NCBI GenBank assembly: GCA_019637075.1 | Contig: JAHBWI010000006.1 | Span: 1 to 64,000, forward strand | Origin: Nitrospiraceae bacterium | GTDB lineage: Bacteria > Nitrospirota > Nitrospiria > Nitrospirales > Nitrospiraceae | Length of the DNA stretch: 64,000 nucleotides | Direction of reading: 5' to 3' | In this document: positions 3,828 to 56,401 of the stretch, one piece after another | Position numbering within the stretch: position 1 is the stretch's first letter | How the letters are laid out: every line of letters starts with the position of its first letter | The notes under the pieces: generated by a model | Seen by the model: only the letters and a program-made list of their open reading frames with translations | Told to the model about the DNA's origin: nothing | Database searches by the model: none | Position numbers and translations under genes: made by a program

Positions 3828-4265
3828 ATGCCTTCGACGCGGCAGCTGCTACCAATCATTCTCTGTCTCTTAGCCATTCTCCTAGAAGGCTGTCCCTTAG
3901 CCTGGAGACGCGCGACGCTCAATGACATCATTCGTCCAGAAGATGTCGCGTTTATTGTTCCTGGAACGACAACGATTTCCGAAGTCGTCAAGTATTTGGG
4001 GGCGCCGGGCAGCATACGGTCGGTGGACAACCGCACCGTCGTTCGCTATCACTTCTTGGACACCAAGTACTTCACTATCAATATCACCAAACCGCTGCCG
4101 TTTATCTTCCCGGCTATACAACTCGTGCCCAGCGATCTCTACCAGCTGACATTCACCGGTGGTGGATCAGGCACGGAGGAACTCCAGGTGGAGTTTGATA
4201 GAGATTGGGTGGTTGTGTACTACGCCTTTGCTCACCATCAGCAGGCCAGCCGCTACATCCCCTGA
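3828..4265 (+). CDS. Second SmpA/OmlA-like lipoprotein
   Basis: This 145-residue lipoprotein has a signal peptide and a lipobox LLEGC at about residue 22. IVPGTTTISEVVKYLGAPG parallels the VGTSTRQEVASLLGAPE segment of the preceding protein, and both begin the domain with R/S-x-EDV. The two look like diverged tandem duplicates. The C-terminal half is rich in beta strands and aromatic residues. The function is an unassigned envelope role. Confidence 0.6.
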   Translation: MPSTRQLLPIILCLLAILLEGCPLAWRRATLNDIIRPEDVAFIVPGTTTISEVVKYLGAPGSIRSVDNRTVVRYHFLDTKYFTINITKPLPFIFPAIQLVPSDLYQLTFTGGGSGTEELQVEFDRDWVVVYYAFAHHQQASRYIP

Positions 4266-28547: not shown

Positions 28548-28627
28548 CTCGTCTCATTCCCGATTGTTAGCCTTCATGCGTGATGTGTCACAGCCGCACA
28601 TCAAACGTCTATCTAGAGGAGGGAGCT

Positions 28628-49229: not shown

Positions 49230-49835
49230 ATGAGCACATCCGCTGATTTGAGTCACGTGCCGACATCCGAGAACAACCTGATCGAGGATGCCGACGGCCC
49301 CTCCGGTGGAGAGCCGGCCTCCGAGGTCCAGAGTCTCGACAAGATCCGGGACATACTTTTCGGCGCGCAGGTTCGGGACCACGAACGGCGTTTTGCTCGC
49401 CTGGAAACCCAACTCCTGGCCGAGGCGGCCCAGCTGCGCACTGATTTGAAACAACGGTTCACGGCGCTGGAACAATACATCCGAAACGAGGTCGACGGCC
49501 TGACGGCACGTCTCCAGAGCGAGCAGCAGAGTCGAACGAGCAGCATCCACCAGGTTTCGGCGGATCTGCAAAACCTCGCCGAGGCCCTCCGCGTTAGTGC
49601 CGCTTCCCTCCAGGAGCGAGGCGAGCAGGCCGATTCGCAAATCCGGCAGGAATTGCAGGCCGAGGCCAACGCGCTCAAAGAGTCCTTTGTCCAACGGCAC
49701 ACGGAACTGTCGGCGACGATGGAATCGGCCGTCGAGCGGCTGTCCGCCCAGAAAACCGACCGAGCCTCGCTCGCAGCGTTGTTTCAGGAACTCTCAATCA
49801 AGCTCTCGGATGATCGCCGCGCCGCGCAACGCTAG
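49230..49835 (+). CDS. Coiled-coil protein of the GTPase/OmpA cluster
   Basis: The 201-residue protein has a disordered acidic N terminus (1-35). LDKIRDILFGAQVRDHERRF (36-55) then leads into a long coiled coil to the end. There is no signal or transmembrane segment. The I-R-D-I-L-F-G-A-Q helix resembles ELRNLLLAPEQSRLEALQEQ at the N terminus of the next protein. A cytosolic adaptor for that membrane protein or the GTPase is the most economical role; I do not know a named family. Confidence 0.7.
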   Translation: MSTSADLSHVPTSENNLIEDADGPSGGEPASEVQSLDKIRDILFGAQVRDHERRFARLETQLLAEAAQLRTDLKQRFTALEQYIRNEVDGLTARLQSEQQSRTSSIHQVSADLQNLAEALRVSAASLQERGEQADSQIRQELQAEANALKESFVQRHTELSATMESAVERLSAQKTDRASLAALFQELSIKLSDDRRAAQR

Positions 49836-49921: not shown

Positions 49922-51652
49922 ATGGCACGCCCGACTAGAGAGCGAACAGGCTCCGAGCCGAATGAATACTCCGAACTGCGCAATTTGCTGTTAGCGCCAG
50001 AACAGTCCCGCCTCGAAGCTCTGCAGGAACAGGTTCAGCGCCTCGATCTCAACGCGCGCAACCTCAGCCGTATCCTCCCCGACGCCATTGAACTCCGAGG
50101 TACGCACGACACGCATTTGTCCCATGCGCTCACGCCGCACGTCTCAGACGCACTGGGCGTGTCGGTCCGCAAACGCCCGCAGATGATCGTAGACGCTATC
50201 GCCCCGATCATGATGCCGGCCATCCGGCAGGCCATCGCCAACGCCCTGCGCGGCATGGTCCAATCGCTCAATCAGACGATCGAGCACAGCCTGTCGATCC
50301 GAAGCCTGCGTTGGCGGTTGGAAGCCTATCGAACTGGCAAGCCCTTCGCCGAGATCGTCCTCCTGCACACCCTGCTGTACCGAGTGGAACAGATCTTTCT
50401 GATCCATAAGGATTCCGGCCTCCTCCTCGCCCATGTTGGCGGCGACAGCGCCGCTCTGCAGGACCACACCCTCGTCTCCGGCATGTTGTCGGCCATCCGA
50501 AGTTTCGTGCAGGATTCTTTCGGAACGGACCCGGAGCAATCGCTCAACACATTGCGTGTGGGCGAACTTACGGTCTGGATCGAACAAGGACCTTCGGCGA
50601 TGCTCGCAGCGGTTATACGCGGAACTCCCCCTGAGACACTGCACAGCACCCTGCAAGATACCCTCGATCGGATTCACGTTGACCGGATGGAGCCGCTCTC
50701 GACCTTCGCAGGGGATGTCACCCCCTTCAGCAGCACGAAGCCTCTCCTCGAAGAATGCTTGCACGCGCGCTTTGACCAGCGGGCGCGCCGGACCTCCCCG
50801 TTGGTATGGATGCTCCTCGCCGGAATCGTCGTCGCGGGAGCGCTGTGGGGGCTCTCTTCCTATCGCGAACGAGAACAGTGGCATTCCTACCTCGACCGAC
50901 TCGCAGCGGAGCCTGGGCTGATCGTCACCGCCACAGACTCCGAATCGGGACGTTTCACTTTGAGAGGGCTGCGCGATCCCCTGGCTGCCGACCCCCTGCC
51001 GCTCCTTGCCGAATCGGGACTGGCCGCTGATCGCGTTATCCAAACCTGGAGCCCCTTCTATGCGTTGGATCCCGCACTTATTCTGAAACGGACTCGCCAT
51101 CTTTTACAGCCGCCACCGACAGTTCGTTTCACCTTAGAAGAATCGCGGCTGGTCGCAGCGGGCTCGGCTCCGATCGAGTGGATCCAACGCAGCCGATCGC
51201 TTGCGCCAGTGATCCCGGGGTTGATGGCCTACGACGACGGCCCGCTCGTGAGCGGCTCCATCACCGGACTTGCTCAAGACTTACGGGACACGCGCATCCT
51301 CTTCGAGGTTGGGGGCGGCAGGATTCTCTCCCCTCAGCAGCTGGACGAAATAGGACGTCTCTCGGAGATCTTGCGCCGTCTCGACTCCCTCGCCCGGATC
51401 TCGAACCACACCGTGTCAGTCTCGATCGTCGGGCAATCGGATGCCCTTGGCACCACCGACTACAACCGGCGACTCAGTCAGTTACGGGCTCGCACGGTCC
51501 GGGAGGCGCTCCGTCCGGGAGACTATGAGCGGATTACGCTCCAAGCCACGGGCCTCGGCACCGCCGGATCAACAGAGCAAGCTGCCACGACACCGATTGG
51601 TGCCCGAGAGCGGCGTGTGTCCTTTCAGGTCTCCATCGAGCCCACCCCTTGA
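49922..51652 (+). CDS. Transmembrane protein with roadblock/longin-like and OmpA domains
   Basis: The 576-residue protein starts ELRNLLLAPEQSRLEAL and runs as helices to about residue 145. A domain at about 150-260 (LLYRVEQIFLIHKDSGLLLA, then ELTVWIEQGPSAMLAAVIRG) has the strand-helix pattern of roadblock/LC7 or longin-type GTPase partners. One transmembrane helix lies at 303-320. Next are two BON-like segments (about 330-435). The C-terminal OmpA-like peptidoglycan-binding domain (about 450-576) has SIVGQSDALGTTDYNRRLSQ. The GTPase gene follows 5 nt later. It should link the cell wall to cytosolic signalling. Confidence 0.8.
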   Translation: MARPTRERTGSEPNEYSELRNLLLAPEQSRLEALQEQVQRLDLNARNLSRILPDAIELRGTHDTHLSHALTPHVSDALGVSVRKRPQMIVDAIAPIMMPAIRQAIANALRGMVQSLNQTIEHSLSIRSLRWRLEAYRTGKPFAEIVLLHTLLYRVEQIFLIHKDSGLLLAHVGGDSAALQDHTLVSGMLSAIRSFVQDSFGTDPEQSLNTLRVGELTVWIEQGPSAMLAAVIRGTPPETLHSTLQDTLDRIHVDRMEPLSTFAGDVTPFSSTKPLLEECLHARFDQRARRTSPLVWMLLAGIVVAGALWGLSSYREREQWHSYLDRLAAEPGLIVTATDSESGRFTLRGLRDPLAADPLPLLAESGLAADRVIQTWSPFYALDPALILKRTRHLLQPPPTVRFTLEESRLVAAGSAPIEWIQRSRSLAPVIPGLMAYDDGPLVSGSITGLAQDLRDTRILFEVGGGRILSPQQLDEIGRLSEILRRLDSLARISNHTVSVSIVGQSDALGTTDYNRRLSQLRARTVREALRPGDYERITLQATGLGTAGSTEQAATTPIGARERRVSFQVSIEPTP

Positions 51653-51657
51653 GGCCC

Positions 51658-52194
51658 ATGCCGATAACTGATGCCAAAGTTTGCATGCTGGGCGCCTTTG
51701 CGGTGGGGAAAACGAGCCTCGTCCGCCGTTTCGTCACCAGTCAATTTTCGGATCAGTACCACACCACTATCGGGGTCAAGGTCGACAAGAAAACCCAGAC
51801 GGTCGACGGCCACTCGGTCAATCTAATCCTGTGGGACCTCTACGGCGAAGACGATTACCAGAAGCTCCGGCTCTCATATTTGCGTGGAGCCTCGGCCTAC
51901 CTCCTGGTGTTGGACGGCACGCGCAGAACCACGCTGAATGTGGCGCGGCAACTTCAGCGCATGGCCGAGGATGCATTGGGATCGGTACCGTTCATCGTGC
52001 TGGCCAATAAGGCGGACTTGGTGGACGAATGGGAAGTCACACAGGAAGAGCTCGACGAGCTCGTGCGGCCGGGCTGGCGACTCGTCACCACCAGCGCCAA
52101 GACTGGTGAGGGGGTGGAACAGGCTTTCCAGCTGCTGACTGAATCGCTCATTCGGAGCGATAGGGCGAATACCTCCGCCCCGAAAGCACCATGA
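51658..52194 (+). CDS. Ras/Rab-like small GTPase
   Basis: The 178-residue protein (ATG 51658; TTG 51649 possible) has all G motifs. The P-loop is GAFAVGKTS (12-20) and switch I has T37 in HTTIG. G3 is DLYGED (60-65), G4 NKAD (117-120) and G5 TSAK (145-148). The position equivalent to Ras Gln61 is Glu64, so intrinsic hydrolysis may be slow or need a partner residue. No lipid-modification Cys is at the C terminus. Neighbours suggest the roadblock-like protein and the sigma-54 activator as partners. Confidence 0.9.
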   Translation: MPITDAKVCMLGAFAVGKTSLVRRFVTSQFSDQYHTTIGVKVDKKTQTVDGHSVNLILWDLYGEDDYQKLRLSYLRGASAYLLVLDGTRRTTLNVARQLQRMAEDALGSVPFIVLANKADLVDEWEVTQEELDELVRPGWRLVTTSAKTGEGVEQAFQLLTESLIRSDRANTSAPKAP

Positions 52195-53987
52195 ACTCCA
52201 CCACCTCGGTGCCGCACACGGCGTTGCTCGCCGGGCTGGTGAAGTCTCTCAACGTCGCCGTAATGGAGCCGACGGCCGAGGGTCGGTTCCGGCTGCTCGG
52301 CGAACCGCCGGCTTGGCTCGCGACGGTCTATCCGGCCGCCGCGCGGGACCAGCCGTTCACGATCGGTGAGAATCTGCCAGTTCTCCATAACTTCCTAACC
52401 GATGCGGCCGACATCTGGCGCCTGGAAGACGGGGCGGTTCTCGACTCAGGATTGTGGACCGAGGAGGACGCCTCCGGTCGACCATGGCACCTGGAAGCCA
52501 CGGCGCTGAGATCGGCCGGGCGAAATCTTCTGCTGCTTCGCGAGTGCGGGGCTGAATTCGAGCGCCGGCACAACTTCCTGCAGGCCGCACGCACCCAGAT
52601 GTTGAGCCAGGAAACGGAACGGCGCGGACAACACCGAAGCCAACGCGCCCTCTCCGCCAGACTGGAGGAGACTGAACAGGTTCGCAACGACGTCTTGACG
52701 ATCTTGCAGCAATTCAGTCTCGCCATCGCGCTGATCGACCAGGATGGCAAAGTGCGCTTCTTGAGCAGCGCGGCCGCTCGTCTCCTTGAGCTGCCGAACC
52801 CGCCACCTCGTAACGCGCCATGGAATTCCCTCCTTCGACTGGCCAAGCCGGATCGCCTCACGCTCCACACATTGCTTGAGGGCATGGCCGTCCCGGATCC
52901 AGCTCGTCTCTCTTGTGGGGTCGAAACCCAAAAAGGCACCCGTCTGTGGCTCGACATCGATGTTCATAACGACCCGCGAGATGCGCGCACGAAAATGGTC
53001 TGCCTGCATGACCGGAGTGAGGTCCACCACTTGCGTTCGCTCCTCGATGAGAAGGCACGATTTTACGACCTGATCGGCAGAAGCTCCGGGATGCTCCGAA
53101 TCTACCAGAAGATTCAGGACCTGGCGCGCGTGGAATCCACCGTGCTGATCGAAGGTGAAACCGGCACCGGCAAGGAGCTGGTGGCCCGAGCCCTCCACGC
53201 GTCGAGCCCCAGGAACGAAGGTCCCTTCATCGCCGCCAACTGCGCCGGCTTGACCGACTCGCTCCTCGGCAGCCAACTCTTCGGGCATAAGCGGGGTGCG
53301 TTTACGGGAGCGATCGACGACCATCAGGGCCTATTCGAAGCCGCCCACGGAGGGACGCTGTTCCTGGATGAGATCGGAGACATTCCCCCTCACGTCCAGA
53401 CAAGCCTGCTTCGCGTTTTGCAGGAAAAAGAAGTTACTCGGCTGGGGGAATCCCGTCCTCGAAAAGTGAACGTACGGGTGCTGGCCGCCACGCACCATGA
53501 TCTGGCCCACGATGTCGCCAAAGGCAGTTTCCGTGCGGACTTGCTGTATCGCATCCGCGTCGCCCGGATTCACCTGCCCGCGCTACGCGATCGAAAAGAA
53601 GACATCCCGTTGCTGGTGACCAAGTTCCTCGGCGATGCCCGTGCGGCGATGGGCAAGCCGGTGCAACACGCGACGCCGGCGGCCATTGCACGGCTCCTGG
53701 AATATGATTGGCCCGGCAATATCCGTGAGTTGAAAAGCGCCATCGACTGCGCAGTGATACACTGCCGCACTTCTGGGATCGATCTGGCGGACCTTCCACC
53801 CGAGATTCGTACCGAAGGTATCGGTCTCTCCTCTTCGGCCATCGGCTCGAACGTAAACCTGCGTGGCCGTATTGAGGCCACCCTTCTCCGCACCAACGGC
53901 AACCGGACAGAAGCGGCGCGCCAACTTGGAATGAGCCGCGCCACCTTCTATCGTCGTCTCTCGGAACTCGGTTTCCCGCAAGACTAG
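52191..53987 (+). CDS. Sigma-54 activator with unusual N-terminal sensor and PAS
   Basis: The 598-residue protein overlaps the GTPase gene by 4 nt. The first 130 residues form an unnamed PAS-like sensor ([37 protein letters not shown]). A coiled coil (about 130-165) and a PAS domain (about 170-285) follow. The AAA+ domain (about 295-525) has Walker [15 protein letters not shown] for sigma-54 contact and DEIGDI. A Fis-type helix-turn-helix ends the protein ([20 protein letters not shown]). It lacks a receiver domain, so control probably comes through ligand or GTPase binding. Confidence 0.9.
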
Positions 53988-54019: not shown

Positions 54020-54058
54020 TGTCTCAGTGAGACAACGATGAGACAGCCTGCTGTCTCA
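54020..54058 (+). promoter_or_regulatory. Tandem TGTCTCA/TGAGACA palindromes, probable enhancer
   Basis: TGTCTCA (54020-54026) and TGAGACA (54028-54034) form one palindrome. TGAGACA (54039-54045) and TGTCTCA (54052-54058) form a second in the opposite arrangement. All four half-sites are perfect. They start 33 bp after the sigma-54 activator stop and end 82 bp before the sigma-54-like promoter, the usual enhancer distance. Confidence 0.65.
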
Positions 54059-54139
54059 TGTACCCGGTCGCTCCGCAAGCCCCACCACCGCATGCTTATA
54101 ACTGATTGAAAACTCACGCACCTGTCCGCCCGCGCCTTC

Positions 54140-54153
54140 GGCACGACATTTGA
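54140..54153 (+). promoter_or_regulatory. Sigma-54-like promoter
   Basis: TTCGGCACGACATTTGAT contains GG (54140-54141) with the GGCACG block and TTTGA at the -12 side. N10 separates GG from GA in place of the canonical GC. It would drive the LuxR-type gene at 54228. Confidence 0.45.
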
Positions 54154-54227
54154 TCTACGGTCATCATCGTAGGGACAGTCACGAAAGGCACAGTCCTAGG
54201 GCCTCAGCAAAAAGAATAGGAGACAAG

Positions 54228-54512
54228 ATGGAGAGGTTGATCCCGATCGCACAGGAACGCCCCGAACGACCGACGGCACGAGAACGGCAAATTCTCGATC
54301 TGATTTGGGCGGGACTTACCAATCAGGAAATCGCCGGCCGCTTGGGCATCGCCGCCAAGACAGTCGAATCGCACCGCGCCAATCTCATGAGAAAATTCCG
54401 TGCCGGCAACACCGCGCAGTTGCTCCGCGAGGCGCTGCTGCAAGGCATGTTACGTATGCCTCCATCCGCCGGGCCCGGCACAGAGCTAGAACGGGACGCC
54501 GCATCGAGATAG
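54228..54512 (+). CDS. Small LuxR-type HTH regulator
   Basis: ATG 54228 follows ATAGGAGA; an upstream in-frame start at 54150 overlaps the sigma-54-like promoter. The 94-residue protein is essentially one GerE/LuxR helix-turn-helix: TARERQILDLIWAGLTNQEI and IAAKTVESHRANLMRKF. It has no receiver or autoinducer domain. Such stand-alone factors can act as DNA-binding output or as co-regulators. It sits immediately downstream of the predicted sigma-54 enhancer, so it is the likely first target of the signalling cluster. Confidence 0.82.
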   Translation: MERLIPIAQERPERPTARERQILDLIWAGLTNQEIAGRLGIAAKTVESHRANLMRKFRAGNTAQLLREALLQGMLRMPPSAGPGTELERDAASR

Positions 54513-54712: not shown

Positions 54713-54741
54713 TTGACCTCCTACGAAGAATATTTTATAGA
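54713..54741 (+). promoter_or_regulatory. Strong sigma-70 promoter
   Basis: TTGACC (54713-54718), 17 bp and TATAGA (54736-54741), with a leader of about 50 nt to ATG 54801. The rest of 54513-54712 shows no convincing gene. Confidence 0.7.
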
Positions 54742-54800: not shown

Positions 54801-55925
54801 ATGAGACGACCCTCCCTTCAGATTCTTCAGATCCTTGGCATCGTGCTGGCCATTTTGCTGCAAACCGCAGCCTTCGCCGATGAACCGGCTGCGACCGCCG
54901 ACGTGCCGCAAGCGGCACCGGCGCTTGATGCAGTCACCCTGAAGGACGGCAGCGTAATCTACGGCCAAGTCCTTGGGATGATCGCCGGTGAACTGCATGT
55001 GAAAACGGGCTTTGGACCGACAGCCGGCAACGACGTGGTCAAGATCCTATGGCCGAACGTCGCCAAGATCGTGGTCAATCGACCCATTCCCTTTTCGCTG
55101 AAAGAAGGCACGACGGTCGTGGGCACCGTGCAACCAGGTGACCCCGGCACGATGCTGCTTACGGCAGCACCAACCGGCACACCCATGACCGTCCCTCTCG
55201 ATGCAGTCTTGGGAGTCAATCAGCCGGCGGTCATCTACACCGGTGCGCTGCAAGCTGGGTTTTCTCAGAGCACCGGCAACAGCCACCTGCGCAACGCCAG
55301 CCTCTTGGGAGACCTGTCGGCTAGGAGCGAATCACTGCGACTGACCATCCTTGGGCGCTATGTCTACGGCGATGACGCGGGACGACTGATTGTCCGCAAC
55401 GGCCGCGGCACCATCAAACTGGACTTCTTCTTGACCAAGCGGCTGTACTGGTTTGCTTCCGCCTACTTCGAACAGGATACGTTTCAGGACCTGAAGCTAC
55501 GTACCTCACTCTCAACCGGCCCCGGTTATCAGCTCTTGGATACCGGCGACATCTCCTCCGGCATCTTCAAGGGCATGACGCTCTGGGTAGAAGCCGGCGC
55601 CGCCTATTTCAACGAAGACTTTCGAGTGGCGGACGACCGAAGCAGCACGCGCGGCCGTTGGGCGGCAAAATGGAATTGGCCGCTCTGGGGCGGCGATCAG
55701 GTGACGCTGTACCATTTCCAAGAAGGCTTTCAATCGTTCGCCAACACGAAAGACCTTTACGTCACGGCAGACACCGGCGTGCGCTTCAAGATCATCGGTG
55801 GACTCGTCAGCGGCTTTCAGTGGACCGTTCGCTACAACAAGAATCCCCCGGTCGGCGTATCCGACACCGACAATCTTTACCTGGTCACCCTGGGCTACAG
55901 CTTTGATACGAGCCGCAAGCAATAG
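54801..55925 (+). CDS. DUF481 (YdiY-like) outer-membrane beta-barrel protein
   Basis: The 374-residue protein has a signal peptide (cleavage after AFA, about residue 26). An N-terminal strand-rich domain (about 40-145) includes VTLKDGSVIYGQVLGM. A DUF481 barrel follows (about 155-374), starting GALQAGFSQSTGNSHLRNAS and ending YLVTLGYSFDTSRKQ. The family is in the outer membrane with unknown function. It has a strong promoter, and mscL follows 50 nt later. Confidence 0.85.
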   Translation: MRRPSLQILQILGIVLAILLQTAAFADEPAATADVPQAAPALDAVTLKDGSVIYGQVLGMIAGELHVKTGFGPTAGNDVVKILWPNVAKIVVNRPIPFSLKEGTTVVGTVQPGDPGTMLLTAAPTGTPMTVPLDAVLGVNQPAVIYTGALQAGFSQSTGNSHLRNASLLGDLSARSESLRLTILGRYVYGDDAGRLIVRNGRGTIKLDFFLTKRLYWFASAYFEQDTFQDLKLRTSLSTGPGYQLLDTGDISSGIFKGMTLWVEAGAAYFNEDFRVADDRSSTRGRWAAKWNWPLWGGDQVTLYHFQEGFQSFANTKDLYVTADTGVRFKIIGGLVSGFQWTVRYNKNPPVGVSDTDNLYLVTLGYSFDTSRKQ

Positions 55926-55975: not shown

Positions 55976-56401
55976 ATGGGTATGATGCAGGAATTCAAAG
56001 AATTTGCCATGAAGGGCAATGTGCTCGACATGGCAGTCGGCGTCATCATTGGCGGCGCGTTTGGAAAGATCGTGTCCTCATTGGTCAGCGACATCCTCAT
56101 GCCGCCCATCGGGCTGCTCATGGGGAAAGTCGACTTCTCCAGCCTGTTCATTCCGCTGTCGGAAGAAGCCAAGGGCAAATCCCTGGCCGCCGCGAAAGCG
56201 GCCGGCGCCGCAACGATCAATTACGGTGTCTTCCTCCAAACGATGCTGGACTTTGCCATCTTGGCCTTCGTGATCTTCATGGTCGTAAAACAGATGAATC
56301 GATTTAAGAAGGAAGTTCCCCCGGCGCCGCCGGCGGCGCCCCCAAAACAGGAAGTGCTGTTGACCGAGATTCGCGATATTTTGAAAGGACAGCGTCACTG
56401 A
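55976..56401 (+). CDS. mscL: Large-conductance mechanosensitive channel
   Basis: The 141-residue protein has the N-terminal helix [20 protein letters not shown] with the constriction [21 protein letters not shown] second transmembrane helix follows (about 83-103), and the C-terminal bundle starts [10 protein letters not shown]. It opens near lytic tension. With the MscS gene at 48302, both osmotic safety valves lie within 8 kb. An AAGGAGGGGG site precedes the ATG. Confidence 0.96.

Follow-up and report, generated by a model that had tools for sequence, protein, structure and literature searches.

TGTCTCA half-sites as the probable enhancer of an adjoining sigma-54 activator encoded behind a Rup-like GTPase cassette in Nitrospirales

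Four exact copies of a 7-bp half-site, TGTCTCA or its complement TGAGACA, lie directly behind the gene of a sigma-54 activator in a Nitrospiraceae bacterium. From their arrangement and conservation we consider it highly probable that they form the upstream activating sequence of this activator and serve the predicted promoter at 54139-54154 of gene 54228. Because the genome encodes about 31 sigma-54 activators, the pairing of this activator with these sites rests on position and co-conservation. Taken alone, the enhancer is an ordinary, well-supported member of the NtrC-type class. All coordinates refer to the window, the whole stretch of 64,000 nucleotides that was analyzed; loci in relatives carry L numbers.

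52191-53987, plus strand: sigma-54 activator with PAS-helix-PAS (residues 1-290), AAA+ (294-461) and Fis-type HTH (560-592, recognition region SRATFYRRL)
54020-54026 and 54052-54058: TGTCTCA half-sites
54028-54034 and 54039-54045: TGAGACA half-sites
54020-54034, no strand: converging palindrome TGTCTCA-G-TGAGACA, two outer half-sites of the putative enhancer (from sequence and genome search)
54039-54058, no strand: 20-bp unit TGAGACA-GCCTGC-TGTCTCA, the most recurrent unit of the putative enhancer (from sequence and relatives)

Read directly, positions 54020-54058 are TGTCTCA-G-TGAGACA-ACGA-TGAGACA-GCCTGC-TGTCTCA, four exact half-sites in the order > < < >. The perfect half-sites of a preliminary description of this DNA hold in position and identity, as do its two palindromes with centers of 1 bp and 6 bp. 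Its distances were each 1 bp too long: 32 bp, not 33, lie between the stop codon of the activator gene (53987) and the first half-site, and 81 bp, not 82, separate the last half-site from GGCACG (54140). The same description would have abandoned the enhancer reading if the 7-mer proved randomly placed. The lone 7-mer is indeed near its chance level in the 64-kb window (10 copies found, 7.0 +/- 2.8 expected), yet the four-copy cluster is unique in the genome. No other 7-mer in the window has 4 non-overlapping copies in 40 bp, and 60 replicas drawn from a first-order Markov model of the window contain no 7-mer that does. In a scan of the 4.06-Mb genome, exact TGTCTCA-N-TGAGACA, TGAGACA-N(3-12)-TGTCTCA and TGAGACA-N6-TGTCTCA occur at this locus only, and the runner-up matches to the 15-bp and 20-bp palindromes carry 2 mismatches each. 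When 3 mismatches were allowed in the 20-mer, the whole genome gave 85 matches versus 45 in the control. The consensus had also been offered as a means of finding the regulon; the scan returned one target, the present locus, and since no other 20-mer match in the 4.06-Mb genome is better than 2 mismatches, we claim no further target there. Elsewhere in the window, at 28550-28590, three half-sites with at most 1 mismatch lie near the start of the 28580 open reading frame and may be due to chance.

Phylogenetic footprinting carries most of the argument. We searched the 300 bp after each activator gene for at least 3 half-sites, each with at most 1 mismatch, within 60 bp. Such clusters stand behind 32 of 37 orthologous activators and behind 1 of 85 other sigma-54 activators, with a Fisher p of 5e-23 that overstates independence because the orthologs are related. 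The controls were paralogous sigma-54 activators, the best matches of an activator protein scan of the genome contigs, and randomized sequence yields such a cluster in approximately 1 to 2% of cases. Four of the five remaining orthologs have the cluster further downstream, in L117 and L120 behind the next gene, and the fifth (L189) retains two exact half-sites. The orthologs, 45 to 65% identical and from other genera and families, have TGTCTCA/TGAGACA clusters in the intergenic region behind the gene, followed by a -24/-12 element, and the half-sites are kept while the intergenic flanks have diverged. Aligning the window with L115 and 22 same-family relatives shows islands of conservation at the block of half-sites and at GGCAY-N5-TTG; the distance from the start of the last half-site to the -24 GG is 91 to 94 bp in most of the 22 relatives and 88 bp in the window. 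L182 and L183, the closest relatives (65%), share the order > < < > with the window, provided that TGACACA, which differs from TGAGACA at one position, is taken for the second copy. We searched 236 genomes from the order: 19 contain the exact 20-mer, at 20 places in all, and 13 of these places lie within 1.6 kb 3' of an activator ortholog. The 20-mer is present in 16 of 104 genomes with an activator ortholog versus 3 of 132 without one. The enhancer arrangement appears to be conserved throughout what seems to be the order Nitrospirales.

The putative promoter and the gene behind it are as follows.

54139-54154, plus strand: predicted sigma-54 -24/-12 promoter CGGCACG-ACAT-TTGAT, with GG at 54140-54141 (from sequence; GGCAY-N5-TTG[AT] is kept in 22 same-family relatives)
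54228-54512, plus strand: mini LuxR gene, the predicted target, encoding a 94-aa LuxR/GerE helix-turn-helix protein that lacks a receiver domain (Pfam GerE, E-value 9e-19)

The element was described earlier as GGCACG...TTTGA; its GG and TTTG are in place, whereas the -12 part has GA instead of the usual GC, so that it reads GG-N10-GA, and it is GGCAY-N5-TTG that relatives keep. Sequence alone does not make the promoter match significant: with 1 mismatch allowed, the sigma-54 pattern gave 53/55 versus 50/54 for the reversed control, with no enrichment in the genome. The support for a promoter at 54139-54154 is its conservation in relatives, not the pattern match. The genome encodes a single rpoN (one PF04552 match, 194 bits, G000:C8). 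The LuxR mini gene stands first behind the promoter in the window and its closest relatives; its product is 69% identical in L115, and this gene is very probably the target. In L115 and L184-L204, the stretch from the -12 element to the LuxR start codon contains a conserved leader block, AAACCACTGCGTGCAA, that is absent from the window.

Does the promoter also serve the genes further downstream? The order after the LuxR mini gene is DUF481, MscL and an OmpA coiled-coil protein.

54713-54741, plus strand: separate sigma-70-like promoter TTGACC-N17-TATAGA before DUF481, outside the sigma-54 unit (from conservation)
54801-55925, plus strand: DUF481 outer-membrane protein, a conserved neighbor (domain match and gene order in relatives)
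55976-56401, plus strand: MscL mechanosensitive channel, a conserved neighbor (domain match and gene order in relatives)

In relatives, the DUF481 promoter is TTGATC-N17-TATACA or a near variant, a strongly conserved element of the TTGA[TC]C-N17-TATA type. The preliminary description had assigned the sigma-54 promoter to the cluster as a whole. That assignment is supported for 54228; for the whole cluster it is unsupported, because this conserved sigma-70-like promoter intervenes and DUF481-mscL-ompA has it for its own. Sigma-54 control of DUF481 is possible through read-through alone. Many of L184-L204 (e.g., L184 at approximately 4215-4240) have an inverted repeat, GGCAAC-N9-GTTGCC, in the DUF481 5' leader after the TTGATC promoter; it may be a hairpin or an operator, the latter perhaps bound by the LuxR mini regulator, and it is not evident in the window.

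The genes behind the sites differ in other genera. Family f3 has these sites before the sigma-54-like promoter of a CheY-like response-regulator gene and, as a second site-plus-promoter combination, before that of a small Cys-rich gene. The predicted target in L116 and L119 is a short open frame with a NarL-type regulator after it; L117 has a response regulator, behind DUF481, in that role. Given these targets and the LuxR mini gene, the output of the activator would usually be another regulator.

These variable targets also bear on who binds the half-sites. Sites of this kind can be used by more than one protein and a LuxR-type gene adjoins them, so that they might be occupied by a different regulator, such as a repressor or the LuxR product, while the sigma-54 activator acts elsewhere. 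We regard this as unlikely: the LuxR gene is absent at this place in family f3 and in L116-L119, where the activator and the sites persist. Moreover, and in line with the NtrC-type enhancer proposed in the preliminary description, the sites track orthologs of the activator, hold their distance to the -24/-12 element within the roughly 80 to 150 bp expected of an enhancer, and are absent behind other sigma-54 activators. Less probable still is that the inverted repeats act in RNA, as a hairpin that terminates or attenuates the activator transcript. Two hairpins are indeed predicted, with a fold z-score of -2.5. However, there is no T-run and no terminator-like site at the repeats; relatives retain GTCTC/GAGAC while varying the order, orientation and spacing of the copies, which a conserved hairpin would not tolerate; and in several genomes the sites lie far from the 3' end of the activator gene, before another sigma-54-like promoter. 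We therefore reject a terminator or RNA hairpin. A chance or mobile repeat devoid of function would fit the single 7-mer, which is not enriched in the window, but is rejected with near certainty by a cluster that occurs nowhere else in the genome, arises in 0 of 60 random replicas, and is kept across genera behind 32/37 orthologs versus 1/85 controls.

For the upstream activating sequence, we hypothesize the following course of events. The Fis-type HTH of the activator would bind TGAGACA-N6-TGTCTCA and the extra half-sites, where the AAA+ domain would oligomerize. DNA looping would then bring the activator to the sigma-54 polymerase at 54139-54154, and this contact would start transcription of the mini LuxR regulator at 54228-54512. 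The diverging TGAGACA-N6-TGTCTCA, the second palindrome of the earlier description, is the most widely recurring unit. The extra half-sites lie approximately 10 to 13 bp apart in mixed orientation, with 3 to 5 copies in all and with order and spacing that differ between genera; we infer that several dimers may be aligned along the same face of the helix. The recognition helix offers a weak but consistent hint, as its sequence appears to agree with the half-site type: TGTCTCA sites accompany activators with SRATFYR or SRATLYR, whereas TGAAACA repeats accompany the paralog with SRVTLYR (L132).

The activator itself has matches to PF00158 (AAA+ sigma-54 interaction, 9e-67) and PF02954 (Fis-type HTH, 7e-11). 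Its N-terminal part is arranged as PAS-long helix-PAS, with fold matches that include the NifL-NifA and DhaR complexes. The genes upstream encode AsmA, MscS, a coiled-coil protein, an OmpA-domain protein and a Ras-like GTPase, the last three of which we describe as a GTPase cassette.

49230-49835, plus strand: coiled-coil cytoplasmic protein of 201 aa, which matches the coiled-coil member of Group 1 Rup neighborhoods as described in PMC4316618
49922-51652, plus strand: 576-aa protein with an unknown N-terminal domain, a hydrophobic segment at approximately residues 294-312 and a C-terminal OmpA peptidoglycan-binding domain
51649-52194, plus strand: Ras-superfamily small GTPase, Group 1 Rup-like, with the G3 motif DLYGEDD that lacks the catalytic Gln (Pfam Ras, E-value 3e-33)

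The gene order of coiled coil, unknown-TM-OmpA, GTPase and output is common to the window and seven relatives, in which the G3 motif reads D-L-[YH]-G-[ED]-[DE] and likewise lacks the catalytic Gln. The GTPase gene adjoins the activator gene in 8 of 8 examined neighborhoods that have this N-terminal domain and in 0 of 9 neighborhoods, among those with enough flank, of shorter activators with no match to that region. In an alignment of 23 orthologs, from which L197 was left out for its broken frame, Gln131 is the sole invariant Gln in residues 1-290 of the activator.

The survey by Wuichet and Sogaard-Andersen that named the Rup GTPases (PMC4316618) describes Group 1 neighborhoods as a coiled-coil gene, a gene with unknown domain, TM segment and OmpA domain, a GTPase in which the G3 Gln is missing, and an output protein that has an N-terminal invariant Gln; the outputs are typically c-di-GMP enzymes (diguanylate cyclase or phosphodiesterase) or a histidine kinase. 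It reports no experimentally characterized interactions of Rup GTPases. The present cassette shares the neighborhood, the GTPase without the G3 Gln and the N-terminal invariant Gln, the last likened by its presence and not by its position in the published logo. What sets it apart is its output, a sigma-54 enhancer-binding protein for which a target promoter can be identified. We call the cassette Rup-like and not a standard member because its output is neither a c-di-GMP enzyme nor a histidine kinase, although in the survey such outputs are typical and not defining. A sigma-54 activator as a Rup output appears to be new: we found no mention of one in the passages of PMC4316618 that were consulted, and a literature search found no paper linking Rup GTPases to sigma-54.

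As a reasoned proposal built on the gene order, the matched architecture and the conserved Gln, we tentatively suggest, at somewhat less than even chances, that the Group 1 Rup-type cassette senses the cell wall or membrane and gates the PAS-helix-PAS activator at this enhancer, with Gln131 perhaps completing the active site of the GTPase. The PAS-helix-PAS part would then be the output end of the coiled-coil/OmpA/Ras-GTPase cassette, and a cell-wall or membrane signal would reach the promoter through the GTPase switch. Since the last gene of this Rup-like system encodes a DNA-binding activator, and since one predicted target promoter of it is clearly marked, the output could be read with a reporter gene.

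In its site architecture the enhancer resembles the NtrC-type systems of Desulfovibrio (PMC4641369), where regulons of one to four operons are usual and the sites are inverted repeats with N6 centers (yGTCA-N6-TGACr) in regions with multiple half-sites; in both cases inverted half-sites adjoin the activator gene upstream of a -24/-12 promoter, here a predicted one. Unlike in Desulfovibrio, the half-site here is TGAGACA/TGTCTCA, in 3 to 5 copies of mixed orientation, apparently across the order Nitrospirales. The activator is strongly related to NifA, DhaR and PrpR in its AAA+ domain and Fis-type HTH and shares their PAS-type N-terminal folds. Among the named NCBIfam families listed, however, there is none whose curated cut-off it reaches, and its PAS-long helix-PAS arrangement coupled to a GTPase cassette sets it apart from these proteins. 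In the papers searched we found neither Nitrospira activator sites of this kind nor the TGTCTCA half-site. The present locus provides a defined candidate motif for one of the approximately 31 sigma-54 activators in a group that is ecologically important and genetically little studied.

One activator paralog in the genome is 84% identical to its counterpart in a Nitrospira MAG, which suggests a Nitrospira-like lineage. Several further loci carry related arrangements. In L125, L127, L131 and L149, a small Cys-rich protein (CxxCGGL...RCVQCGDIVD) with no Pfam match is encoded behind its own TGTCTCA cluster and a TGGCACG-N4-TTTGAT-like promoter. A paralogous activator at G000:C7:58827-59768 (L134) and the one in L135, both with an SRRTFYRR helix, lie near a sigma-54-like promoter and small genes of the LuxR type. 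The promoter in L134 comes after a TGTGTC/TGACACA repeat, which suggests a sister circuit with a shifted half-site.
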